Source of the DNA: Anaerolineae bacterium
GTDB lineage: Bacteria > Chloroflexota > Anaerolineae > Aggregatilineales > Phototrophicaceae
Direction: 5' to 3'
Length of the DNA: 64,000 bases
Assembly: GCA_022841825.1 (NCBI GenBank)
Contig: JALHQT010000003.1
Location: 62,001 to 126,000, forward strand
In this document: positions 1,387 to 18,776 of the stretch, one piece after another
Numbering within the stretch: the stretch's first letter is position 1
Layout of the letters: the number at the start of each line of letters is the position of its first letter
Notes under the pieces: model-generated
What the model saw: the letters and a program-made list of their open reading frames with translations, nothing else
Databases searched by the model: none
Told to the model about the DNA's origin: nothing
Made by a program: the position numbers and the translations under genes

Positions 1387-2721
1387 ATGATAGCAGACCG
1401 CCGTACCCTGCTCGAAACGCAGCTCAACAGCTTTGACGCCGCTGAACGTGCCGCCGCGCTCGACGATCTCCTGGCGCTTGCCGCGAGCGGCGAGATCGCT
1501 TTGCCGCCGGAGCAGGCGGTCGCCAACATGCACTGCCACACCTTTTTCTCGTTCAACGCCTACGGACATTCACCTTCCTCGCTCGTCTGGCTGGCGAAGA
1601 CGCGCGGCTGGCGGCTGATCGGCAGCGTCGATTTCGACGTGCTGGATGCGGTCGATGAGTTCCTCGGCGCGTGCGAGCGGGCAAATGTGCGCGGCAGCGC
1701 GGGCATCGAGACGCGCGTCTTCGTGCCGGAGTTTTCCACGCGCGAGATGAATTCGCCGGGCGAGCCTGGCGTGCTTTATCACATGGGCATTGGCTTCACG
1801 ACCGGGCGCGTCAACGACAAGGCGGCGGTGGTGCTTACCGATCTGCGGGCGCGGGCGGCGCGGCGCAACAAGGACATCATCGCTCGTGTCAACGCCTATC
1901 TCGACCCGGTGACGGTCGATTTCGACGCGGACATCGTCCCGCTGACGCCTGGGGCGAACCCGACCGAGCGCCACATTGTGCTCGCCTACACCGAGCGCGC
2001 GGCGAAGCTGGGCGACCCGGTCGGCTTTTGGGCGGACAAGCTGAAGATGCCGCGCGAGGCGATGGAGAAGACGCTGGCGGACAAGGCGGCGCTGCAAAAC
2101 GCCGTCCGCTCCAAGCTGATGAAGGCGGGCGGTGTCGGCTATGTGCAGCCGGACGCGGGCGCGTTCCCCTCGGTCGAGGCGTTCCACACGCTGATCGAGG
2201 CGTGCGACGCGCTGCCCTGCGCCGCGTGGCTGGATGGCATGTCGGCGGGCGAACAGGCGATTGAGGAGCTGCTCCATCTGCTGATTGGCAAGGGCGTCGT
2301 CGCCTTCAATATCATCCCCGACCGCAATTGGAACATCGCCGACCCGGAACAGAAGAAAAAGAAGGTCGCCGCGCTCTATCAGGTCGTGCAGGTGGCACAG
2401 GATCTGGCGCTGCCGCTGAATGTCGGCACCGAGATGAACAGCTTCGGGCAGAAGCTCATGGACGACTTCGACACGCACGAACTGGCACCCGTGCGCAAGG
2501 CGTTCATCGACGGTGCGCAGTTCATCTATGGGCATACGCAGATGGCGCGGCGCTGGGGCATGGGTTATCAGAGCGCCTGGGCGAAGGCGGTGCTGCCAGA
2601 ACGCGCCGCGCGCAACAAGTTCTACACGCAGATCGGCAAGCATCTGCCGCCGGAACGCGCCGCGAGCATGTCGTTCGCGTCGTCCATGTCGCCCGACGAG
2701 ATCCTGAGGGTGCTGGAATAA
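1387..2721 (+). CDS. PHP-domain metal-dependent phosphoesterase-like protein
   Basis: A cytosolic protein of 444 residues with a polymerase-and-histidinol-phosphatase (PHP) fold. The metal-binding signature is visible as H49-C-H51 ('MHCHTFFSFNAYGHSP'), an acidic pair near D82/D84 and 'GIETR' with E108; a late histidine sits in 'IYGHTQMARRWG'. PHP enzymes hydrolyse phosphoesters using two or three divalent metals, but this 440-residue form is much larger than histidinol phosphatase and its substrate is unknown. I chose ATG 1387 because GAGGA lies 6 bases upstream; an in-frame upstream start at 1357 has no such site. It is followed by two sugar/polyol-type dehydrogenase genes on the same strand, suggesting a sugar-phosphate substrate (inference). 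Confidence 0.75.
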   Translation: MIADRRTLLETQLNSFDAAERAAALDDLLALAASGEIALPPEQAVANMHCHTFFSFNAYGHSPSSLVWLAKTRGWRLIGSVDFDVLDAVDEFLGACERANVRGSAGIETRVFVPEFSTREMNSPGEPGVLYHMGIGFTTGRVNDKAAVVLTDLRARAARRNKDIIARVNAYLDPVTVDFDADIVPLTPGANPTERHIVLAYTERAAKLGDPVGFWADKLKMPREAMEKTLADKAALQNAVRSKLMKAGGVGYVQPDAGAFPSVEAFHTLIEACDALPCAAWLDGMSAGEQAIEELLHLLIGKGVVAFNIIPDRNWNIADPEQKKKKVAALYQVVQVAQDLALPLNVGTEMNSFGQKLMDDFDTHELAPVRKAFIDGAQFIYGHTQMARRWGMGYQSAWAKAVLPERAARNKFYTQIGKHLPPERAASMSFASSMSPDEILRVLE

Positions 2722-2751
2722 CCATCACTCGTTTCTCGACCCTGGATTCGT

Positions 2752-2757
2752 TATAAT
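2752..2757 (+). promoter_or_regulatory. candidate -10 box (TATAAT) for the dehydrogenase pair
   Basis: A perfect TATAAT stands 52 bases ahead of the dehydrogenase start, in the 87-base gap after the PHP gene. No good -35 hexamer is present at 16-18 bases, so an activator or another sigma contact would be needed. It suggests the two dehydrogenases can be transcribed independently of the PHP gene. Confidence 0.4.
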
Positions 2758-2808
2758 CATGCTTTCGATTGCTTTCGATCCTTTTCGTTGTGCATAAGGA
2801 AGAGGCGT

Positions 2809-4515
2809 ATGACCGACAAAATCAGTGAGTACCGTGACGCGGATCAGCCGCTGCCCGATCATAATGTGATATGGCCCCTCTATGGATCGGGCTTTGAAAA
2901 CCTCGGTAAAGACGGGCAGATGCTCGAAACACCGCTGCCGCAGGTTGGCGCGAATCAACTGCTGGTGCGTCATGACGCCGTCGGCGTCTGCTTCTCGGAC
3001 ATCAAGGTGATGAAGCTGGGGCAGGAACACCCGCGCATCTACAAAGACATGAAGCAGCAGCCCGTCGTCCTCGGTCACGAGGTCAGCATGACGGTCGTCG
3101 CCGTCGGCGAGAACCTGCGCGACAAATACAAGGTCGGCGACCGCTTTATCATCCAGGCGGACATTTACGTCAAGGGCGTCGGCTATGCCTACGGCTACGA
3201 GATGGACGGCGGCTTTTCGCACTACGGCTTGATCGACGAGCGTGTCCTCCAGGGCGACGAGGGCAACTACCTGCTGTCCGTGCAGCCCGACAAGGGTTAT
3301 GCCGAAAGCGCGCTGACAGAACCCTGGGCGTGCGTGATCGCCGCCAACCGCCTGACCTATCGCACCGCGCTCAAGCATGGCGGCACCACCTGGATCATCG
3401 GCACGGGCGACGCGCGCGATTACACGATCAGCGCGGGATTCGACGGCGTATCGCACCCGGCGACGCTGCTGCTGTCGCGCGTGCCGTCGTCGTTCGCGGC
3501 GTGGCTGAAGGAGCGCGCGGCTCAGCTTGGCATCGCCGTGCATGAGGTGGACGATCTCAGCGCGCCGCCCATCGACAAGATCGACGACATCATCCTGCTC
3601 GGCTCCGACGCCGACGCGCTGGAAACGACGAGTAAGTTCCTTGCCAACGGCGGCATCTTCGCCGTCGTCACCGATAAGCCCTTCGCGCGTCCCACGCAGA
3701 TCGACATCGGGCGCGTGCATTACAACAACTGGGTCTACGTCGGCGGGCAGTCACCCGATGTCGCGCGCGCCTACCACGACCTGCCGGTGCGCTCGGAACT
3801 GCGCAAGGGCGGCAAGGCTTGGTTTGTCGGCGCGGCGGGTCCGATGGGGCGTATGCATGTGCAGCGCGCCATCCAGATGATCGATGGACCCAACGAGATC
3901 GTCTGCACGGATGTCTCGCAAGCGCGCCTGGACGACCTCTACAACAGCTTCGCGGCGGAGGCGACTTCGCGCGGGATCAGCTTCGTGTGTACCAACCCCA
4001 CGAGCGCCGAAGGGAAGGCGATTATGGCGAAGTATAAGGCGCAGAAGTTCGACGACATCATCGTCCTCGCGCCGGTCGCCGCGCTCGTCTCCGACTGCGC
4101 GACGTATCTGGCACAGGATGGCGTGATGAACATCTTCGCAGGGGTGGCGCGCGGCGTGATGGCGTCGCTCGACGCGGGCGATTTCGCCTTCAAGCGTACC
4201 CGCCATATCGGGCAGTCCGGCTCGACTATCGAAGACCTGCGCGTCATGCTCCAGCAGGGCGAGGCGGGCATCATCTCGCGCAATCGCTCGGTCGCGGCGA
4301 TAGGATCGCTCGACGCCCTGCCGGACGGCTTGCACGCGGTGCAGGATGCCGTCTTCCCCGGTAAAGTTGTCATCTTCCCACACATCAGACCGCTGCCGCT
4401 GACGCCGCTTGGCAACCTCAAGACGGTGCTGCCGACCGTCTACGCCAAACTGCGCGACGGGCAGGAATGGACCAACGAGGCGGAAGAGGAATTCTTGCGC
4501 CTGATGCTGCCGTAA
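2809..4515 (+). CDS. SorE-like zinc-type (MDR) sugar/polyol-phosphate dehydrogenase, enlarged
   Basis: A 568-residue medium-chain dehydrogenase. The catalytic zinc ligands are visible as C61 ('GVCFSDIK'), H90-E91 ('LGHE') and E171 ('TEPWAC'). The cysteine cluster that binds structural zinc in classical alcohol dehydrogenases is absent. The overall pattern recalls L-sorbose-1-phosphate reductase (SorE) and related polyol dehydrogenases, but those are near 350-410 residues. The extra length lies between a first, weak nucleotide-fold start (191-206) and a second, better glycine motif 'GAAGPMG' (341-347). ATG 2809 is preceded by AAGGAAGAGG. It lies 11 bases before an SrlD-like gene, so the pair probably interconverts phosphorylated ketoses and polyols with NAD(P). 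Confidence 0.75.
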   Translation: MTDKISEYRDADQPLPDHNVIWPLYGSGFENLGKDGQMLETPLPQVGANQLLVRHDAVGVCFSDIKVMKLGQEHPRIYKDMKQQPVVLGHEVSMTVVAVGENLRDKYKVGDRFIIQADIYVKGVGYAYGYEMDGGFSHYGLIDERVLQGDEGNYLLSVQPDKGYAESALTEPWACVIAANRLTYRTALKHGGTTWIIGTGDARDYTISAGFDGVSHPATLLLSRVPSSFAAWLKERAAQLGIAVHEVDDLSAPPIDKIDDIILLGSDADALETTSKFLANGGIFAVVTDKPFARPTQIDIGRVHYNNWVYVGGQSPDVARAYHDLPVRSELRKGGKAWFVGAAGPMGRMHVQRAIQMIDGPNEIVCTDVSQARLDDLYNSFAAEATSRGISFVCTNPTSAEGKAIMAKYKAQKFDDIIVLAPVAALVSDCATYLAQDGVMNIFAGVARGVMASLDAGDFAFKRTRHIGQSGSTIEDLRVMLQQGEAGIISRNRSVAAIGSLDALPDGLHAVQDAVFPGKVVIFPHIRPLPLTPLGNLKTVLPTVYAKLRDGQEWTNEAEEEFLRLMLP

Positions 4516-4526
4516 AGGATCAAAAG

Positions 4527-5318
4527 ATGCCAGGGGTATTACAGGATAAAATCGCCATCGTGACGGGTGGCGCGCAGGGGCTGGGCGAGGCGCTCTCGCT
4601 GCGGTTGGCGGCGGAGGGCTGTGATGTGCTCGTCTCCGATATTCAGGGCGAGGCGGCGGAGGCGACCGCCGCGCGCATCGTGAACGAACACGGGCGGCGG
4701 GCAGCGGGCGTGCGCGTCGATGTGACGAAGGAGGAAGAGGTCGCCGCGCTGATCGACCGGGCGGTGAATGACTATGGGCGGCTCGACCTGCTGGTCTGCA
4801 ACGCGGGCATCCTCGTCTCCGGCGATACCGACCTCTTTCCGGTCGAAAAGTGGCGCGCGGTGATCGAGGTCAACCTCGTCGGCTACTTCCTGTGCGCCAA
4901 ACATGCCGCGCGCGTGATGAAGGCGCAGCGCTTCGGCAATATCGTCCAGATCAATTCCAAGTCCGGCAAGAAGGGCAGCTTCAAGAGCACTGCCTACGCC
5001 GCCTCCAAGTTCGGCGGCATCGGCTTGACGCAGAGCCTCGCACTGGAGATGGCGGAGTTCAATGTGCGCGTCAACTCCATCTGCCCTGGCAATCTGCTCG
5101 ATTCGCCGCTGTGGGTCAATTCACTCTACAAGCAGTATGCCAAGAACCTGGGCATCAGCGAGGAAGCAGTGCGACAGAAGTACATCGACCAGGTGCCGAT
5201 GAAGCGCGGCTGCACCTATGACGATGTCGCCAACGTGCTGGTCTTCATGGCGTCGGAACAGTCGAGCTACATGACCGGGCAGGCGATCAACGTCACGGGC
5301 GGGCAGGAGATGCGCTAG
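4527..5318 (+). CDS. sorbitol-6-phosphate 2-dehydrogenase-like SDR (SrlD family)
   Basis: A 263-residue classical short-chain dehydrogenase. It shows the cofactor loop TGGAQGLG (13-20), 'NAG' at 92-94 and the catalytic Y157xxxK161. The C-terminal third ('PGNLLDSP', 'YIDQVPMKRGC.YDDV.NVL', ending 'TGQAINVTGGQEMR') closely parallels what I remember of Escherichia coli SrlD, which oxidises D-sorbitol 6-phosphate to fructose 6-phosphate with NAD. ATG 4527 lies 11 bases after the SorE-like gene and has AAAGGA upstream. No PTS is present in the window, so how the polyol becomes phosphorylated is open. Other phosphorylated polyols are possible substrates. Confidence 0.82.
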   Translation: MPGVLQDKIAIVTGGAQGLGEALSLRLAAEGCDVLVSDIQGEAAEATAARIVNEHGRRAAGVRVDVTKEEEVAALIDRAVNDYGRLDLLVCNAGILVSGDTDLFPVEKWRAVIEVNLVGYFLCAKHAARVMKAQRFGNIVQINSKSGKKGSFKSTAYAASKFGGIGLTQSLALEMAEFNVRVNSICPGNLLDSPLWVNSLYKQYAKNLGISEEAVRQKYIDQVPMKRGCTYDDVANVLVFMASEQSSYMTGQAINVTGGQEMR

Positions 5319-5347: not shown

Positions 5348-7753
5348 TTATGTCCCATAGATCGCGCGGTAGAGCGCGTAATTGGCGTAGATGCGCTGGA
5401 CGTAGGTGCGCGTGTTGGTGACGGTGATCGTCGTCAGCGTCAGTTCGGGGTCATCGCCCGCCAGCGCCGCCCACTGCCGCGCCCGCCCTGGTCCCGCGTT
5501 GTAGGCGGCGAGCGCGGCGGGGGTGTTGTCCGCGAATGCCTCAAGCTGCTCATGCAGATAGTACGCGCCAAAGGCGATGCTTTCGCGCGGATTGAACAGA
5601 TCGCTGTGCTGGTAGTCGGCGCGTCCCAGCGCTTCGGCAATCGTACGCCCGGTGCTGGGGATGACCTGCGTCAGCCCGATCTCGCCCGCCGCAGCGGTCG
5701 CTGCCGCGTCAAACAGGCTTTCGTGGCGGATGAGCGCGAACATCAGCAGCGGGTCAACGCCGTATTCCGCCGCCTCTGCCTCGACCAGCTCGCGATAGTA
5801 GACCGGGTAGCGCAGGCGCGCCAGATAGCGCGGCGCGTTCAGCGTGGGAACGCCCGCCGCCGTCAGCACGTTTGCCGCCGCCTGGATGCTGAAGTTGTAA
5901 ACGCCGAGCGACCGGAAGAACTCCGCCAGTTGATACGACGACAGCGCGTCGCCCGCGTAGGTCTGCGTCAGCGCGCTGAACTCCTCACGCGCGTCGTCGA
6001 GCGCGCCCAGCGTCCACAGCTCCCGCCCGCGTATCAGGCGTGGGTCGCCCTGCAGCGCCGCCGAGAGCGGCGCAAGCGGCGCGCCGTCCGCGATACCGAA
6101 CGTCGCGCGCAGCCACGCCTCCGCCTCGGCGCGCTCGGCTGTCTCGTCGTACGTCAGATTGAGCGCAGCGGGCGGCGCGAACGGCGGGCGTCCCGCCTGA
6201 ATATCCGCCACGCGGGCGGCGAAATAGGTCTCTGTGCCGCCTGCCGCCGCCCGCTCGAAAGCCAGCGTGGCGATCTGCGAGTCGCCGCGCCGCAGCGCCA
6301 GCCGCCCGACATTCAGGTATGCCTCGGCGCTCTGGTCGCCCGCCCCGCGCGCCGCCAGCGCCGCGTAAAACTGATCTGCGCTGCCTTCGCTGCTCGCCAG
6401 CAGCGCCGCCGCGCCCGCCAGCAGCAGCCCGCTCTCGACCTGCTCGCTGTCGGGGTACGCCGATGCCAGCCGCCCGAAGAGCGCCGCCGCCTGTTCCGCG
6501 TCGCCCGTGGTGCCCGCCAGATAGGCAGCGCGAAAGAGCGCTTCCGGCGCTTGCGGCAGATAGCCAAAAGTCTCGACCAGGGTCATGTACTGCCCGATGG
6601 CAGCCGGGATGTCGTTCGCCAGAAAGCGCGTCCGCCCCTGTTCCAGCAGAGCATCGCCAAAGGCAGGGTCAGTCGGGAAGCTATCGACGACAACCTGGAA
6701 GCTGGTCAGCGCCGCCGCCGTGTTGCCGAGTTCGCGGTAGGCACGTCCAAGCTGGAGATAGAGCAGTGGCGGCACATTCACCAGCGGGCGGCGGGTCGTG
6801 TAGGTGTTGTAGGCATCGATAGCGCCGCCGTAATCGCCGAAGGCGAAGCGAACCTGTCCTTCCTGGAACTGGTCGAGCGTAACCCCGTTTTCCAGCAGCG
6901 CGCTCATCGCGGCGTATGCCTGCGGTCGGTCCGGGAATTCCTCGAAAACGCCCTGCATCCGCCCTAGCGCGGTCGGAACATCGCCTGCGTCGAGCAGCAC
7001 GCGCGCGGCAGCGTAGGCGATGCTGGCGCGGTAGGGCGCGTTGCGGGCGGTCGCCAGGATCGTGTCGTACTGCTGAACTGCCTCACTCACCTGCCCGCCG
7101 GCGACGTAGACCTGCGCCAGCTTCTCGCGCAGTTGCAGCGCCGGAACCAGCCCACGCGCCGCTGCGAGCGCGGCGACGTAGCTGGCAAGCGCCCCGTCCG
7201 CCTGCCCCAGTCCCAGCCGCGCGTCGCCGATGCGCTCCTGGGCATAGCTGTCGATCAAGCCTGGGCGCGCCGCGAGATACGCTTCGTAATCGCGGATGGC
7301 GTCTTCCCACCGCGCGACGCCGAGCAGCGCATCGCCGCGCAGGAAGACCGCCTGCATGACGCGGGGATCGTCGGGAAACGACGCGATGAAAGTCGTCAGC
7401 GCCTGTGCCGCCGCTTCAAACGAGCCGCTTCGCAGCGCCGTCTGCCCCAGTGCGAACAGCGCATCGCGGCTTTCCGCCCCGCTGGTGACCTGCGCGTAAA
7501 GCGCCATGGCGGCGTCGCCATCGCCCAGGCGGGCGGCGCGGTTCGCCGCGTCGAGCAGTTCGGCGGGCGGCACGGTCGGCGTCGGCGCGGTCGTCGCGGT
7601 GGGCGTGGGGAGCGGTGTGGCGGCGTCCTGCGTCGCTTCAAGGGCGACCTGCGTCTCATTCGGGACAATGATGATGTCTGGGGTTTCCGGCACGGCTGGG
7701 GCACAGGCGTTCAGGATGAGCAGCAGCAGGAGGAAGTGGTGTGGTTTCGCCAT
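5348..7753 (-). CDS. TPR-repeat lipoprotein with lytic transglycosylase (SLT) domain
   Basis: An 801-residue envelope protein. The N terminus is a lipoprotein signal with lipobox LNAC (Cys near 16), followed by a Thr/Pro linker. Residues about 65-620 are a long series of tetratricopeptide-type helical pairs (for example 'ALFALGQTALRSGSFEAAAQ', 'PPLLYLQLGRAYRELGNTAA'). The C-terminal about 140 residues are a soluble lytic transglycosylase domain with catalytic E678 in 'IRHESLF', then 'GLTQVIPSTG' and 'AAYNAGPGR'. The architecture matches Slt70-like muramidases that cleave peptidoglycan to 1,6-anhydro products. The gene stands alone and faces the SrlD-like gene. Confidence 0.9.
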   Translation of the reverse strand: MAKPHHFLLLLLILNACAPAVPETPDIIIVPNETQVALEATQDAATPLPTPTATTAPTPTVPPAELLDAANRAARLGDGDAAMALYAQVTSGAESRDALFALGQTALRSGSFEAAAQALTTFIASFPDDPRVMQAVFLRGDALLGVARWEDAIRDYEAYLAARPGLIDSYAQERIGDARLGLGQADGALASYVAALAAARGLVPALQLREKLAQVYVAGGQVSEAVQQYDTILATARNAPYRASIAYAAARVLLDAGDVPTALGRMQGVFEEFPDRPQAYAAMSALLENGVTLDQFQEGQVRFAFGDYGGAIDAYNTYTTRRPLVNVPPLLYLQLGRAYRELGNTAAALTSFQVVVDSFPTDPAFGDALLEQGRTRFLANDIPAAIGQYMTLVETFGYLPQAPEALFRAAYLAGTTGDAEQAAALFGRLASAYPDSEQVESGLLLAGAAALLASSEGSADQFYAALAARGAGDQSAEAYLNVGRLALRRGDSQIATLAFERAAAGGTETYFAARVADIQAGRPPFAPPAALNLTYDETAERAEAEAWLRATFGIADGAPLAPLSAALQGDPRLIRGRELWTLGALDDAREEFSALTQTYAGDALSSYQLAEFFRSLGVYNFSIQAAANVLTAAGVPTLNAPRYLARLRYPVYYRELVEAEAAEYGVDPLLMFALIRHESLFDAAATAAAGEIGLTQVIPSTGRTIAEALGRADYQHSDLFNPRESIAFGAYYLHEQLEAFADNTPAALAAYNAGPGRARQWAALAGDDPELTLTTITVTNTRTYVQRIYANYALYRAIYGT

Positions 7754-7887: not shown

Positions 7888-7923
7888 GTGTCTGAATGGA
7901 TGGTTGCATGCAAGCCGATCTAG
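7888..7923 (+). other. possible 11-codon leader ORF overlapping the kinase start
   Basis: GTG 7888 lies 7 bases after GGGGGAG (7874-7880), the only good ribosome-binding site ahead of the kinase gene. It encodes 11 residues and stops at TAG 7921-7923, past the kinase's in-frame ATGs at 7896 and 7908. It could be a translational coupling leader, or the site may simply serve ATG 7896 with long spacing. Confidence 0.25.
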
Positions 7924-10082
7924 GGGTCGGGCGAGGACTCACTCGCACGCATCTCATGCTTCTTGCCGTTGTGATCGTGCTGCTCGGTTCACAATTCCTC
8001 GTGCAGTGGCAGCTTACCGAGAAGAATGACGACGTGCGCGTCATCAATCTGGCGGGGCGGCAGCGCATGTTGAGCCAGCGCCTGACCAAAGCGGCATTCC
8101 TGATCACCGCCTCCGATGACTCGGCGACCACAGCACGCGCACGGGCGGAACTGAGCGATTCCCTCACGACCTGGCGCGATACCCAACTGGCGCTGCGCCA
8201 GGGCAGCGATGAACTCCAGCTTTCAGGCGACATCAGTCCGGAGATCGCGCGGTTGTTCGTGCAGATCGACCCGGCATTTCAGGCAATGGGTACAGCGGCG
8301 GACTGCCTGCTGCTGCCTGTTCAGGCTTGTGACCAGGCGGCGGCAGTGACGACGATGCTCAACCACGAGGCTGAGTTCCTGACGGGCATGGATGCGATTG
8401 TCCGTCAGTATGAGGACGAAACCTACGACAGCCTGAACGCGGTGCGGCAGTCGATGGTGATCCGGACTGTGCTCACCCTGCTGCTGATCCTCGTCGTCGG
8501 ATATTTTGTCCTTCTGCCTGCGTCACGCAGAATGCTTTTCGCCGTCAACGACCTGCGCGCCACGCAGCAGGCACTGCGCCAAAGCGAAGCGCGTTTGCGT
8601 TCGATGCTCGATTCGCAGACTGCCTACGTCGTGCGTACCGATATGCGGGGCGAGATCACCTTTGTCAATCAGGCATGGCTGAAGGACTTCGGCTGGATGC
8701 CGGAAGCCTGCGTTGGCAGCTCGTCGATGAATTCGATCCTCTCGGAAGACCGCGATAAAACGCGCGAAACCGTCAAAAACTGTCTTCAAAATCCCGGAGA
8801 AGTCTTCCAGATCACGCTGCGCAAGCCGACGCAGGAAGGCGGATTCATGTGGAGCGTCTGGGACTTCACAGCGATCACGAGCGGCAGCGGGATGCCGACC
8901 GAGATCCAGTGCGTTGGCGTTGATGTGACGACGACGGTCGAGATGCAGGCGGCGCTGCTGGAAAGCGAGATGCGCTTTTCGACCGCGTTCATGACCAGCC
9001 CGGTGCCGATGGCGATCACCACCCCCAACGCACAGCAGCCGCTCTTTGTCGAAGTCAATGACACTTATTGTGCGCTGGTCGGCTTCAGCCGAGAGGAGTT
9101 GGTTGGGCAAGGTGTGATCGAACTGGGGATTGCGATTCCCGGAGAAGGACGCGATGCGCGGCAGCGCACGCTCGAGACGGTCGGGCATTATGCCAGCCAA
9201 CCCGGGCAAATCCGCACCAGGACGGGCGAACTGCATGATGTGATCATTTCTGCGCAGCGCAACATGATTGCCGGTAAACAGTATGACAGCACCATTGTGC
9301 TGGATGTGACGGAGCAGAAGCGCAGCGAAGCACTGGCACAGGAGATTAAGCGTCTGACCGCAGGAGTGAAGAAGGAGCAGCAGCACTATGCGCTGGTTCA
9401 GCAGACACTCTCCAAACTCTCGCATGACCTGGGAACACCCCTAACGATGATCTCGACCGCGAAAGATACGCTGGATCGCTATTTCGACAAAATGACGCTC
9501 GACAAACGCCACGAGAAGCTGGAAAGCATTGGGCGGCAGGTTCAGTTCATTCAGGAACTGCTGCGGGATCTGACGCTGGTGGTCAAAGGGAACCTGAAGG
9601 AACGTGAATTCAACCCTCGCCAGATCGACCTGGCGGCGCTCTGCCAGTTGAACGTCGACGAAATCTGCGCCGCCCACCCGGACGGCGCGCGTCTTCGCTT
9701 TGTCAATCGGGTCGGCGACATCTCCGCACAGGTGGATGAAACCCTCATCAGCCGCATCCTGCTCAATCTGCTCACCAATGCGCTTAAGTATTCCCCCGAC
9801 GGCGGCGACGTGACGCTTGAGCTGGCAAAGCAGGCAGACGATACATTTACCCTCCAGGTGCGCGATCAGGGGATGGGGATTCCGGCAAGCGATTTGCCGC
9901 ACATCTTTGAGACCTTTTATCGGGCGGAAGGCGTCGAACAGATCCCGGGCACGGGGCTTGGGCTGAGCATCGTCAAGGACTGCGTCGAGCGCCACCTGGG
10001 GACAATCCGCGTCGAGAGTGAAATCGGCAAAGGGACGACCTTCACCGTCACCCTGCCGCTAGGGGTGCCTGGCAGGCTGTGA
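7896..10082 (+). CDS. membrane sensor histidine kinase, PilJ/NIT-like sensor and two PAS domains
   Basis: A 728-residue kinase. A first membrane helix (about 13-35) is followed by a periplasmic type IV pili/nitrate-sensor-like domain opening with 'INLAGRQRMLSQRLTKAAFL'; a second helix lies near 185-207. Two PAS domains follow (about 230-345 and 355-470), then a coiled linker and the H-box 'LSHDLGTPL' with H510. The catalytic domain has N-box 'NLLTNALKYSP', G1 'DQGMGIP' and G2 'GTGLGLSIVK'. No receiver or regulator gene adjoins, so its partner is elsewhere. The start is uncertain: ATG 7896 or ATG 7908. The stimulus cannot be read from sequence; PilJ-type sensors in other bacteria respond to small anions or pilus contact. 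Confidence 0.85.
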   Translation: MDGCMQADLGVGRGLTRTHLMLLAVVIVLLGSQFLVQWQLTEKNDDVRVINLAGRQRMLSQRLTKAAFLITASDDSATTARARAELSDSLTTWRDTQLALRQGSDELQLSGDISPEIARLFVQIDPAFQAMGTAADCLLLPVQACDQAAAVTTMLNHEAEFLTGMDAIVRQYEDETYDSLNAVRQSMVIRTVLTLLLILVVGYFVLLPASRRMLFAVNDLRATQQALRQSEARLRSMLDSQTAYVVRTDMRGEITFVNQAWLKDFGWMPEACVGSSSMNSILSEDRDKTRETVKNCLQNPGEVFQITLRKPTQEGGFMWSVWDFTAITSGSGMPTEIQCVGVDVTTTVEMQAALLESEMRFSTAFMTSPVPMAITTPNAQQPLFVEVNDTYCALVGFSREELVGQGVIELGIAIPGEGRDARQRTLETVGHYASQPGQIRTRTGELHDVIISAQRNMIAGKQYDSTIVLDVTEQKRSEALAQEIKRLTAGVKKEQQHYALVQQTLSKLSHDLGTPLTMISTAKDTLDRYFDKMTLDKRHEKLESIGRQVQFIQELLRDLTLVVKGNLKEREFNPRQIDLAALCQLNVDEICAAHPDGARLRFVNRVGDISAQVDETLISRILLNLLTNALKYSPDGGDVTLELAKQADDTFTLQVRDQGMGIPASDLPHIFETFYRAEGVEQIPGTGLGLSIVKDCVERHLGTIRVESEIGKGTTFTVTLPLGVPGRL

Positions 10083-10257
10083 CCGCGCCAGCCAGCGCAG
10101 GCAGCTCCATGAGTGCCAGATGAACTTTAACGCGGATACCCCGCATTTTACCCCTCACGCTTAAAACCAACCCTACACGGACTTAAATCCCTCTTCATGT
10201 TGCGTCGCTACGCTTCCCTGTCGTAATCGCGCTGAAGCAGTGCTAGGGAATTCGTTC

Positions 10258-11226
10258 ATGCAGGAAGATGTAGTGAGCATTGTCGCCCCCGTCTCCGCCC
10301 CCGTCGCGTATGGGCGGCAAAATGCTCTGGCGCGATGGTGGAGCCGCCCGCGTAATCGTGAGCTGCTCATGGCGCTGCTCTACAGCAGCCCCGCTCTGAT
10401 CATCTTCTTTCTCTTCACCTACTTCCCATTTGTGCGCGCGATCTGGTTGAGTCTGAACATCACCAACCAGCGCGGCGAACCCGCTGCTTTCAATGGCTTG
10501 GGCTACTACCTGCGTGTCCTCAGCCTGGATGGCAGCGGGCGCACCGATTACCTCCAGAGCATCGGCACCAGCTTCCAATTCACGCTGATGGTCGTGCCGA
10601 CGGTGATCATCATCGCGGTCGGGCTGGCGGTGCTGGCGGCGACCCGTGTGCGCGGCATCCAGTTCTTCCGGCTGATCTTCACCAGCAGCATCGCCATCTC
10701 TCTGGCGAGCGCGGGCGTCATCTGGTCGCTGATCTACAATCCCTCGTCCGGCGCAACGCGCTGGGTGGTCGAACTGCTCAACCTGGGCGTGCCCGGCGTG
10801 CTCAACAGCAACCTGACGACGATCCCGGCAGTCGCCGTGATGAGCGTGTGGTCTGCGCTTGGCTTTAACTTCATCATCGCGCTGGCGGGTTTGCAGGCGA
10901 TCCCGGAAGACCTCTACGAAAGCGCCTCGATTGACGGCGCGGGCGGCTGGCATAAGTTTCGCTTCATCACCCTGCCGCTGCTTTCGCCCACGCTGCTCTT
11001 CCTCGTCATCATCGGCACTATCGGCGCGCTCCAGGCGTTCACGCAGTTCCATCTGCTCATTCCCGACTCGCCGAACACTGTCTTCATCTACGAGACCTTC
11101 CGTGCCTTCTGGTACGACAACCGCTATGGTCTCGCTTCCGCTATGTCGATCATCGTCTTCATCATCCTGATCACGCTGACCATCATCCAGTACCGCACCC
11201 TCGACCAGAGAGTTCATTACCAATGA
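10258..11226 (+). CDS. ABC sugar/glycerophosphate importer permease, MalF/UgpA type
   Basis: A 322-residue inner-membrane permease with about six helices after a basic N-terminal tail. The conserved EAA loop that docks the ATPase is visible as 'YESASIDGAGGWHKFRFITLPLLSPTLLF'-like sequence near 220-250. It is the first gene of a three-gene unit; its stop overlaps the next start (ATGA at 11223-11226). ATG 10258 has AGGGA about 9 bases upstream; an earlier GTG at 10240 lacks a site. No ATP-binding gene adjoins, so a shared MsmX/UgpC-type ATPase must serve it. Confidence 0.88.
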   Translation: MQEDVVSIVAPVSAPVAYGRQNALARWWSRPRNRELLMALLYSSPALIIFFLFTYFPFVRAIWLSLNITNQRGEPAAFNGLGYYLRVLSLDGSGRTDYLQSIGTSFQFTLMVVPTVIIIAVGLAVLAATRVRGIQFFRLIFTSSIAISLASAGVIWSLIYNPSSGATRWVVELLNLGVPGVLNSNLTTIPAVAVMSVWSALGFNFIIALAGLQAIPEDLYESASIDGAGGWHKFRFITLPLLSPTLLFLVIIGTIGALQAFTQFHLLIPDSPNTVFIYETFRAFWYDNRYGLASAMSIIVFIILITLTIIQYRTLDQRVHYQ

Positions 11227-12086
11227 TCGATACCGCAGACCGGCGCGAACGCCCACCCGTCCCCCATTCACTGCCGTACAACACGATGGTCTATGCCCTG
11301 CTGATCATCGCCGCCATCGTGCTGATGTCGCCGCTGCTGTTCGCGCTTTCCATCTCGGTTCAGGGTCCGACGATGGACCCGCGCTTCATCCCGCGCGACC
11401 TCACGACTCTTGATTTCGCCATCTTCGCGCGTGTCTTCGAGGATGAGCCGATCATCAGCCGCTGGATTCTCAATTCGTTCGTGGTCGCCAGCGGGGTGAC
11501 GCTGGGCGTGGTCGTCACCTCGGCGCTCTTCGCCTATGTGCTGGCATACTTCAGCTTTCCTGGTAAGGCGCTGCTGCTGTTCGTGGCGCTGGGGTCGTTG
11601 ATGGTGCCGTTTGAGGCGACGCTCATCCCCAACTATCTGCTGGTGGCGAGCTGGGGTTGGACGAACTCGTATCAGGGCTTAATCCTGCCGTTCATCGCCA
11701 GCGGCTTCGGCATCTTCCTGATGCGGCAGTACTTTTTGACGCTGCCGCGCGAACTCTATGACGCCGCGCTGGTCGATGGGTGCAGCCGCTTCCGCTACCT
11801 GTGGATGATCCTGCTGCCGCTTTCGCGCCCTGCCATCGCCACACTGGCGGTCTACACCTTCCTGAGTACCTGGAATCAATTCTATTGGCCCCTGCTGGTG
11901 ACCAGCGCCACCGAATGGCGCACCACGCAGGTGGGGATCACCATCTTCCGCAATTTTGAGGGTGGGGTGGTCTACAACACGCAAATGGCAGCCACGTTGA
12001 TCGTGATGCTGCCCACCCTGGTGTTATTAGTCCTGGGGCAGCGCCAGCTCGTCAGTGGTCTGACGTCCGGCGCGCTCAAGGGGTAA
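11223..12086 (+). CDS. ABC sugar/glycerophosphate importer permease, MalG/UgpE type
   Basis: A 287-residue permease with six predicted helices and the docking loop 'LPRELYDAALVDGCSRFRYL' (about 178-197), typical of the MalG/UgpE subunit. The phrase 'FIASGFGIFLMRQYF' just before it is typical of the family. Its ATG overlaps the stop of the MalF-type gene by 4 bases, giving translational coupling, and the binding-protein gene begins 36 bases later. Together the two permeases form the heterodimeric channel. Confidence 0.88.
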   Translation: MIDTADRRERPPVPHSLPYNTMVYALLIIAAIVLMSPLLFALSISVQGPTMDPRFIPRDLTTLDFAIFARVFEDEPIISRWILNSFVVASGVTLGVVVTSALFAYVLAYFSFPGKALLLFVALGSLMVPFEATLIPNYLLVASWGWTNSYQGLILPFIASGFGIFLMRQYFLTLPRELYDAALVDGCSRFRYLWMILLPLSRPAIATLAVYTFLSTWNQFYWPLLVTSATEWRTTQVGITIFRNFEGGVVYNTQMAATLIVMLPTLVLLVLGQRQLVSGLTSGALKG

Positions 12087-17216: not shown

Positions 17217-18776
17217 TTACAGCCGCTCGGCGATGCTCTTTGCCTGGGTGAACAGCAGCAGATAATCGGGACCACCCGCCTTGCTATCCGTGCCGCTCAT
17301 GTTGAAGCCGCCGAACGGGTTGATGCCGACCATCGCCCCGGTGATCTTGCGGTTGAGGTAGAGGTTGCCAACGTGGAATTCGTGGCGTGCGCGCTCCAGC
17401 CGGGCGCGGTCACGGCTGAAGACGCCGCCCGTCAAGCCGTAGTCGGTGCCATTGGCAATTTCGAGCGCTTCATCGTAGTTCTGCGCGCGGATCAACGCCA
17501 GCACGGGACCGAAGATTTCTTCCTGCGCCAGCCGCGCGTCGGGCGCGATGTCGCCGAAGATCGTCGGCGGGAGGAAGTAGCCGCCTTCCGGCGTGTGCAG
17601 CGGCGCGCCACCCAGCAGTAATGTGCCTTCCTGCGTGCCAACCTCGAAATAGCTGCTGATCTTTTGCAGCGCCTTGAGATCGACGACTGGACCCATGTCA
17701 ATTTCGCGCCCCAAGTCGGTCGCGCCGACCGACAGCTTGCCTGCCAGCGCCACGACGCGCTCGGCGACGGCATCATACACGTCGTTGATCAGGATGGCAC
17801 GGGACGCCGCCGAACACTTTTGCCCCTGGAAGCCGAAGGCGCTGGCGACGATGCCCTGCGCCGCTGCGTCGAGGTCTGCCGTCTCATCGACGACCACGCC
17901 GTCCTTGCCGCCCATCTCCAGGATCGAGCGCTTGAGCCACTTCTGCCCCGGATGCACCTTCGCCGCGCGTTCGTAGATGCGGATGCCCACCTCGCGCGAG
18001 CCAGTGAAGGAGATGAAGCGCGTCTGTGGATGATCGACCATGCGCTCGCCGACGACTCTGCCGGGACCCGACACGAAGTTCAGCACCCCGGGCGGCAGCC
18101 CCTGATCCCAGAACAGCTCACAGACCTTCCAGGCAATCCACGAGCTGAGTTCGGCGGGCTTGAACACGACCGTGTTTCCCGTGACGATGGCGGAGGCGAG
18201 CATCCCGGTCGGGATGGCGCAGGGGAAGTTCCAGGGCGGGATGACCGCGCCGACGCCGAGCGGGATGTAATGCAGCGCGAGGTCTTCGCCGCTGCTGTGC
18301 GTCAGCAGTCCGCTGCTGTCGGCGATGCGCACTGCCTGGCGCGCATAGTACTCCATGAAGTCGATCGCTTCGCTTGTATCCGCGTCCGCCTCTGCCCAGC
18401 TCTTGCCGACTTCCAGCACCATTGTCGCGCTGAACTCATGCTTGCGGCGGCGCATCTCGGCGGCGGCGCGCAGGACGTAACGTGCGCGGTCTGCGACGGG
18501 CACGAACTTCCAGGTTTCGAAGGCACGCGCGGCGGCGGCGATGGCAAGATCGGCATGGCTGGCATCCGCCTCGGCGAACGTGCCGACGACTTCCGCCGGG
18601 CGCGCCGGATTGAGCGATTGGAAGGTGTGCGTGAGCGAGATTCGTTCGCCGTCGATGACGAGGGGGTAGGTCCTGCCGATCTCACTTTTGACTTTGTCGA
18701 GCGCTGCGCGCATCGCCGCTTCTTCGTGCGGATCGGCAAAACGGGTCAGAGACTCTGGTATGTATGGCGTGAGCAT
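17217..18776 (-). CDS. rocA: L-glutamate gamma-semialdehyde (1-pyrroline-5-carboxylate) dehydrogenase
   Basis: A 519-residue aldehyde dehydrogenase. The long N-terminal lead-in ('[21 protein letters not shown]'), '[18 protein letters not shown]', the general base motif '[11 protein letters not shown]' and the nucleophile Cys in '[13 protein letters not shown]' are diagnostic of the RocA/PruA group. It oxidises glutamate semialdehyde to glutamate with NAD in proline and arginine catabolism. Length fits the family (about 515). No proline dehydrogenase gene adjoins. ATG 18776 has AGGA about 9 bases upstream. Confidence 0.93.

Follow-up and report, generated by a model that had tools for sequence, protein, structure and literature searches.

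PHP-fold, SorE-like and SrlD-type proteins as a candidate core of an alternative L-rhamnose/L-fucose branch in Chloroflexota

Polysaccharides of plants, algae and bacteria are rich in L-rhamnose and L-fucose, and to our knowledge all known phosphorylative routes for their degradation end in lactaldehyde. RhaEW is reported as an experimentally proven rhamnulose-1-phosphate aldolase/lactaldehyde dehydrogenase of Chloroflexus and Bacillus, which gives dihydroxyacetone phosphate (DHAP) and lactate in Chloroflexus (PMC3870299). SorE, a dehydrogenase of L-sorbose metabolism, is reported to reduce L-sorbose-1-phosphate to sorbitol-6-phosphate (PMC12817954). The stretch of DNA analysed here, hereafter called the window, consists of 64,000 nucleotides from an Anaerolineae bacterium of the Chloroflexota (contig JALHQT010000003.1, positions 62,001 to 126,000). 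It contains three adjacent genes on one strand, hereafter called the trio, which code for a PHP-fold protein (PHP), an enlarged SorE-like zinc-dependent medium-chain dehydrogenase (MDR) and an SrlD-type short-chain dehydrogenase (SDR). An earlier note on this DNA had described the same gene order, and the predicted open reading frames (ORFs) bear this out (Table 1). Very probably the trio belongs to rhamnose/fucose catabolism and takes the place of RhaEW there.

Occurrence of the trio with rhamnose and fucose genes

The survey comprised 249 genomes drawn from the class of the window. Rhamnulokinase (RhaB) was counted as a match to TIGR02627 at E 1e-80 or better; the RhaEW set leaves out G010, which has a distant type below the cut-off, and includes the split or partial matches of G027 and G222, also below it. 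PHP was found in 58 genomes, RhaB in 120 and RhaEW in 49. RhaB was present in 53 of the 58 PHP genomes, compared with 67 of the 191 others (p = 4e-15). Among the 120 RhaB genomes, 51 had PHP only, 45 RhaEW only, two both (G026, G222) and 22 neither, the exclusion having a p value of 6.6e-14. In the genus of the window a strong RhaB match was found in 14 of 15 genomes, five of these having PHP, nine RhaEW (split over two pieces of contig in G006) and none both. Families with either system numbered 28, of which 16 contained only PHP, eight only RhaEW and four (f1, f11, f45, f54) both types; because of these four, clade history explains part of the exclusion and not all of it. MDR was present in 52 of the 58 PHP genomes, and the class II aldolase ALD2 in 46 (ALD2, ALD22, ALD28, ALD33, ALD35, c30 and UroD17 are cluster labels of this analysis). 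The co-occurrence of PHP with RhaB, together with the exclusion between PHP and RhaEW, therefore marks the trio as a substitute for RhaEW.

Loci were collected with PHP alone as the query, 80 of 109 genome_contigs matches being kept. They are mostly from Chloroflexota, with others from Planctomycetota/Phycisphaerae, Hydrogenedentota, one Trueperaceae and one Zixiibacteriota bin. Many are cut off by contig ends; 55 of the 80 are at least 12 kb long, as are 19 of the 20 RhaEW control loci. ORFs were predicted with a basic script that takes the longest ORF or the one that matches best, which makes the gene counts per locus approximate, and the regions that were read (sets of 17, 19 and 10, and the 20 RhaEW controls) were hand-picked rather than random. 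The script annotated MDR in 58 and SDR in 44 of the 80 loci; PHP was followed directly by MDR in 46, and the complete order PHP-MDR-SDR was found in 31. In 61 related genomes, that of the window included, PHP occurred in eight, in each case followed by MDR. The adjacency is more than chance, and its conservation in Chloroflexota, with PHP and MDR adjacent also in Phycisphaerae, supports the shared pathway that the earlier note had suggested for the three genes.

Genes of rhamnose or fucose metabolism in the 80 loci were RhaB (29), RhaA (16), RhaI (10) and a FucI-like isomerase (8), the last scoring 122 bits to a model whose cut-off is 775. The other partners included ALD2 (31), an E1 of pyruvate dehydrogenase (PDH) type (22), E2 (16) and a protein resembling mannitol-1-phosphate dehydrogenase (MtlD-like; 16), as well as DeoR regulators and ribose/rhamnose-type ATP-binding cassette (ABC) transporter genes; E1 or E2 was near PHP in 23 loci. 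RhaEW was found in none of the 80. The 20 RhaEW control loci contained no PHP, no E1/E2, no MtlD-like gene and no MDR above 200 bits; one MDR piece of 128 bits and one SrlD-type SDR were present, both in L199, and ALD2 occurred in five. The frequency of E1 differed between the two sets (22/80 and 0/20, p = 0.005). Four regions from four genomes of family f43 each had the run DeoR-RhaI-ALD2-MDR-SDR-MtlD-like-PfkB-E1, followed by E2 in L118, L120 and L127, whereas the contig of L128 ends at E1; SDR reads as two ORFs in L120 (G189), and in all four genomes PHP is on a contig separate from the run. In Phycisphaerae RhaB, PHP and MDR stand together, in most cases with RhaA close by.

In the genome of the window (G000) the partners are present and dispersed, lying either on different contigs or some 110 kb from the trio. 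Both the rhamnose isomerase and the rhamnulokinase of an L-rhamnose catabolic system were found. RhaI scored 566 bits, above its cut-off, and lies on the same contig as the trio, about 110 kb away (G000:C3:177216-178331), and there are two RhaB proteins, which at 470 and 457 bits do not reach the curated cut-off (528), a shortfall shared by 60 of the 61 genomes searched. ALD2 is at the end of a RhaB-ABC cluster, a fused E1 with 76 % identity to the trio-linked E1 of G013 has E2 0.7 kb away, and the MtlD-like protein stands alone. The search for RhaEW in this genome, which is 95.7 % complete, with TIGR02632 gave the SDR of the trio as its best match, at 189 bits and a cut-off of 568.

The trio in the window and its three proteins

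Table 1 Predicted features of the studied part of the window, its first 20 kb
Feature	Positions	Strand	Basis
PHP-fold protein (PHP)	1387-2721	+	ORF, ATG 1387 to stop 2721, 444 aa
MDR, enlarged SorE-like zinc-dependent medium-chain dehydrogenase	2809-4515	+	ORF with ATG 2809, 568 aa
MDR inner stretch (about residues 199-330), absent from SorE	3403-3798	+	Alignment
SDR, SrlD-type short-chain dehydrogenase	4527-5318	+	ORF with ATG 4527, 263 aa
Lytic transglycosylase with repeats	5348-7753	-	By eye
PAS histidine kinase	7896-10082	+	By eye
Two sugar ABC permeases	10240-12086	+	By eye
Aldehyde-dehydrogenase-type gene	17217-18776	-	By eye

The intergenic gaps are 87 bp between PHP and MDR and 11 bp between MDR and SDR, and an in-frame TTG at 1357 precedes the PHP start codon. 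PHP of the window matched the Pfam PHP domain (PF02811) at E 0.0094, under the gathering score; the same domain was matched at E 0.1 or better by 44 of 48 aligned PHP members, the best at 8e-8. An AlphaFold2 model with a predicted local distance difference test (pLDDT) score of 94.1 forms a PHP barrel, and this fold together with the HxH motif places the protein in the PHP superfamily. The closest solved fold was 2yb1 (Z 24.2, root mean square deviation 3.0, 281 aligned residues), followed by 3o0f and the RNase AM structure 9etk (Z 23.9 each). In a motif comparison with RNase AM and 3e0f, aligned with less certainty in the C-terminal half, PHP retained H49 and H51 of the HxH motif, E108, H132 and H196, and showed VDFD in place of TDHD, SF(N) in place of the SD after HxH, and GTEMN in place of GSDFH. 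H49 and H51 were invariant in the 48 sequences, and the motifs VDF and GTEMN showed little or no variation. The hhalign probability of the PHP alignment was 2.7 % against the single RNase AM sequence and 92 % against RNase AM, entered twice as its protein record and its ORF, plus a PHP protein of L076. A sequence search of the PDB with PHP alone as the query gave no useful lead, and a search of plasmids with PHP no match.

The full ligand set of three-metal PHP phosphatases of the TrpH/RNase AM type, with TDH and GSDxH, is thus absent. In PHP enzymes the residues at these positions are ligands of the third metal, and for this reason a role as an ordinary three-metal phosphatase appears less likely. 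Membership in the RNase AM/TrpH group was rejected because the motifs are lost. Neither of the two outcomes that would have refuted the earlier note was observed: the three genes are conserved together, and the closest folds with a known function, RNase AM and a nucleotide phosphatase, have other metal-site motifs than PHP. Our guess is that PHP acts on one of the pathway phosphates, as an isomerase, epimerase or lyase rather than a three-metal phosphatase.

MDR matched Pfam ADH_N at E 4e-12, with ADH_zinc_N below the cut-off, and over 398 alignment columns was 27 % identical to SorE of Klebsiella, a protein of 410 aa; its structure model had a pLDDT of 94.5. The zinc ligands C61, H90 and E91, and also K66, H74, R112 and E171, are identical in SorE and in paralogues from mannitol operons, and K519 is common to MDR and SorE. 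MDR has the catalytic zinc ligands and the core in common with SorE and differs from it in length: about 130 residues in its interior have no counterpart in SorE and are present, according to the alignment, in the mannitol-operon and Deinococcus paralogues. MDR would work like SorE and is placed in a separate subfamily.

The class survey also gave a second tier of full-length MDR matches (about 460 to 615 bits) with the same enlarged architecture and about 40 % identity to MDR of the trio. The contexts of 14 of the 23 second-tier places were read, picked to spread over genera, with phosphotransferase system (PTS), kinase and HPr-EI genes counted by eye from the ORFs. A PfkB kinase adjoined the paralogue or was near it in 12 places, and an MtlA-like PTS permease was in the same run in ten, in nine of which the run also included a fused HPr-EI protein. 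These ten (L137, L138, L141-L146, L149, L150) are mannitol-type PTS runs with the enlarged MDR and the PfkB kinase beside the permease. In L138 the NCBIfam scores were 468.8 for MtlA (cut-off 468.4), 571 for PTS EI (342) and 315.6 for 1-phosphofructokinase (292). The remaining two places had an FGGY kinase and a FucI-like gene (L147) and an SDR (L148). On the simplest reading, these runs suggest that mannitol-1-phosphate is oxidised at C2 to fructose-1-phosphate and then phosphorylated, instead of giving fructose-6-phosphate. A comparable step on sorbose-1-phosphate is reported for SorE (PMC12817954), and the paralogue contexts point to ketose-1-phosphate/hexitol-1-phosphate chemistry for the enlarged MDR in general. 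MDR of the trio is proposed as a candidate ketose-1-phosphate/hexitol-1-phosphate oxidoreductase. On a plasmid of Deinococcus sp. AJ005 (L116:11192-15946) an SDR, an enlarged MDR, an FGGY kinase and a GntR regulator form a single run next to sugar ABC genes, with no PHP.

SDR passed the equivalog cut-off of the sorbitol-6-phosphate dehydrogenase model PRK12384 (371.6 bits, cut-off 307) and matched the sorbitol-6-phosphate dehydrogenase structure 5o3z at E 7e-67. In a tree of 33 SDRs, in which bootstrapping had not settled and SrlD was among several long branches, the trio SDRs grouped with the f43 SDR and E. coli SrlD (core clade support 100/99), which agrees with the earlier description of this protein as SrlD-like. 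The second SDR of L011 was at the base of the trio clade, and the RhaW domains, SorD and the Deinococcus SDR were outside it; on the basis of this tree SDR was rejected as an equivalent of RhaW. The catalytic residues N116, S144, Y157 and K161 were invariant in 44 sequences. SDR is a candidate hexitol-phosphate dehydrogenase that would yield a ketose-6-phosphate.

Neither by eye nor with the neighbour-family library was a PTS or sugar-kinase gene seen next to the trio; the region inspected comprised the initial 20 kb of the window and the 17 kb of the contig that precede the window. The absence of such genes, as described earlier, thus stands for the surroundings of this trio; elsewhere kinases, isomerases, transporters and E1/E2 are frequent partners. 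Apart from the trio, the only members of neighbour families found there were the two sugar ABC permeases in the window and other SDR-type and alcohol-dehydrogenase-type genes upstream. The other genes listed in Table 1 have no visible link to the trio.

Further genes were observed in the wider set of loci. The PHP cluster L114:870-8368 (G050) has a glycerol-1-phosphate-dehydrogenase-like gene (Fe-ADH_2), a class II aldolase gene and an inositol-3-phosphate-synthase-like gene between MDR and SDR. Uroporphyrinogen-decarboxylase-like proteins, recognised by eye, are near PHP in L040, L041, L051, L052, L057, L059, L119 and L132; the sequence that represents their cluster matched no Pfam family at 1e-5, and two sister clusters match URO-D. 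An ARMT1/DUF89-like damage-control phosphatase (PF01937) is near MDR/SDR genes in L032, L041, L051 and L064. The neighbours resembling glycerol-1-phosphate dehydrogenase, DUF89, URO-D and inositol-phosphate synthase were weighed as clues to function, with no result. In L068 and L071 two E1/E2 sets, one with split alpha and beta parts and one fused, flank an ALD2-PHP-MDR-SDR run. In L122, L123 and L135, close to RhaI and ALD2, there is a protein with about 31 % identity to c30, a xylose-isomerase-like TIM-barrel cluster; MDR-SDR is also present in L122 and L123, and no PHP match was found in the genomes of the three.

Proposed route and rival explanations

In the proposed route, rhamnulose-1-phosphate or fuculose-1-phosphate would be reduced at C2 by MDR to a 6-deoxyhexitol-1-phosphate, from which SDR, or else the MtlD-like enzyme, would form a 1-deoxyketose-6-phosphate by oxidation at C5; both steps are suggested by the enzyme families. 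The net effect would be to move the carbonyl from C2 to C5, as SorE and sorbitol-6-phosphate dehydrogenase do with sorbose-1-phosphate. Whether the trio is, by means of this carbonyl shift, the core of an alternative branch which replaces the RhaEW step of aldol cleavage and lactaldehyde oxidation is in our judgement evenly balanced. More tentatively, the thiamine-dependent E1/E2 might split the 1-deoxyketose-6-phosphate between C2 and C3 to acetyl-coenzyme A (acetyl-CoA) and a tetrose-4-phosphate, a step proposed because the E1/E2 module is a partner in the PHP loci and in none of the RhaEW loci. The cleavage of acetoin by acetoin dehydrogenase is analogous. This acetyl-CoA-forming end is in our judgement less likely than not. 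By our own stereochemical derivation, a cut between C2 and C3 would erase the configuration at C4, the sole difference between rhamnulose-1-phosphate and fuculose-1-phosphate, so that one module could serve both sugars. Taken as a whole, a non-aldolytic 6-deoxyhexose route, in which the dehydrogenase pair and a dedicated thiamine/lipoyl E1-E2 complex act with no lactaldehyde and no loss of CO2, aided by a two-metal PHP of new function, is possible and rather doubtful. No description of the trio or of a deoxyhexitol/1-deoxyketose route for rhamnose was found in the titles and abstract starts listed by searches of the open-licence PMC literature. The undescribed polyol-phosphate pathway of the earlier note survives in outline, sugar or polyol phosphates being probable; the likely substrates have become L-rhamnose and L-fucose.

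The main evidence that weighs against this route is the presence of class II aldolases, either ALD2 or the RhaD-kind ALD35, in most PHP genomes. ALD2 has a full class II active site, with E101, H119, H121 and H193 conserved in 26 sequences. Among the 12 PHP genomes without ALD2, a RhaD-like aldolase was found in G149, G152 and G222, an ALD22-type aldolase in G067 and G268, and other class II aldolases only in G085, G121, G179, G214 and G234; no class II aldolase was found in G197 and G255 (87 % and 77 % complete). Aldol cleavage to lactaldehyde may thus take place, with the trio acting after it. ALD2 or the RhaD-like aldolase would then cleave rhamnulose-1-phosphate to DHAP and L-lactaldehyde, and the trio and E1/E2 would oxidise lactaldehyde to acetyl-CoA, with lactate or methylglyoxal and then pyruvate as intermediates. 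The trio would in this case replace RhaEW only in its RhaW half. Because ALD2 has a complete active site and is so widespread in PHP genomes and loci, this is a serious rival, although we hold it unlikely on balance. Lactaldehyde is common to the breakdown of rhamnose and fucose. The DHAP and lactate reported from RhaEW in Chloroflexus (PMC3870299) are also in its favour. In contrast, SDR is of SrlD type and outside the RhaW clade, the family context of MDR is that of ketose-1-phosphates and hexitol-1-phosphates, E1/E2 is absent from the RhaEW loci although RhaEW also gives lactate, there would be no need for PHP or the MtlD-like enzyme, and only two of the eight FucI-type loci contain a class II aldolase of the library. 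ALD2 as a plain replacement of RhaE was rejected, as it also occurs in the five RhaEW control loci; the RhaEW operons L193, L194, L196, L198 and L203 carry an ALD2-type aldolase in addition to RhaEW, which makes two aldolases per rhamnose operon. Class II aldolases including RhaD and FucA are reported as 4-epimerases (PMC5434028), and such an action may be one way to reconcile the presence of an aldolase with the carbonyl-shift route.

It is improbable that PHP itself is the true aldolase or lyase for rhamnulose-1-phosphate or fuculose-1-phosphate and that MDR and SDR process the products. FucI-like-RhaB-PHP sets with no class II aldolase of the library in the locus (L066, L070, L075) and the remodelling of the metal site away from the three-metal phosphatase type would fit such a role, but ALD2 or RhaD-like aldolases are in most PHP genomes, and G082, G116 and G166 have MDR, ALD2 and RhaI with no PHP. 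We know of no lyase in the PHP family. Equally slight is the chance that the genes are coincidental neighbours retained by phylogenetic inertia, the trio serving an unrelated polyol pathway and the rhamnose link reflecting clade history. There is no rhamnose gene near the trio of the window, and most families contain only one of the two types; both types are nevertheless found within four families and within the genus of the window, and genes of the trio stand in one run with those for rhamnose isomerase and kinase, not only in different families but also in Phycisphaerae. These operons make coincidence unlikely.

Other observations also count against the carbonyl-shift route or against the substitution of RhaEW. 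The scheme yields no role for PHP. MDR of the trio shares so little identity with the mannitol-operon type (about 40 %) that its substrate may differ. E1 or E2 is near PHP in fewer than a third of the loci (23/80) and is absent from the window, and by family models E1 and E2 resemble pyruvate dehydrogenase, with parts other than E1 beta below the cut-offs: the beta part scored 393.6 (PDH subfamily cut-off 321) and the alpha part 352.5 (393.9). The closest solved chains are PDH E1, and pyruvate therefore stays a possible substrate. The curated TIGR02627 cut-off was passed in just three of the 249 genomes. Ten of the 22 RhaB genomes with neither system have an MDR match, five of the 58 PHP genomes show no RhaB, and 16 genomes with MDR of the higher-scoring kind have no PHP. 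In the 49 RhaEW genomes MDR matches occur in seven, four of the higher-scoring kind, and ALD2 in eight, besides its five RhaEW loci. Five Phycisphaerae loci have PHP-MDR with no SDR match, and PHP is away from sugar genes in L042, L044, L119 and L121.

Comparison with described systems

If the proposed route is true, 58 of the 249 genomes sampled from the class, roughly one in four, may degrade rhamnose and fucose differently, genome-based predictions of carbon yield and redox balance would change, and the genes would no longer be named as sorbitol or sorbose enzymes. The trio gives a testable context for the PHP family and for enlarged SorE-like dehydrogenases, including those of the mannitol PTS runs.

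The RhaEW branch and many trio loci have the same upstream genes, for L-rhamnose isomerase, rhamnulokinase, a DeoR regulator and an ABC transporter, and an SDR is present in both. RhaEW, an aldolase fused to an SDR lactaldehyde dehydrogenase, is found in two of the 58 PHP genomes and in no PHP locus, whereas the SDR of the trio is of SrlD rather than RhaW type, and MDR, PHP and often E1/E2 are added. The TrpH/RNase AM-type proteins (2yb1, 9etk, 3o0f) have in common with PHP the barrel with a helical insertion (Z about 24) and differ in having TDH and GSDFH where the trio protein has VDF and GTEMN.

The L-sorbose operon sorCDFBAME likewise pairs a SorE-kind MDR with an SDR, for the same relocation of the carbonyl as is proposed for the trio; it has a PTS, while the trio has none adjacent, its SorE is shorter (410 aa) and 27 % identical to MDR, and Klebsiella SorD is outside the clade of the trio SDR. 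SrlD of the E. coli sorbitol operon is in the same clade as the trio SDR, with the common stretches SKSGKxGS, GNLLxSP and RGCxY; that operon has srl PTS genes, which are lacking beside the trio SDR, and the sugar context of the SDR relatives is 6-deoxyhexose. The trio was rejected as a sorbitol or sorbose operon on the lack of a PTS, the position of SorD and the rhamnose/fucose context, as the earlier note had anticipated in proposing a route different from both, and to name its genes sorbitol or sorbose dehydrogenases would be misleading.

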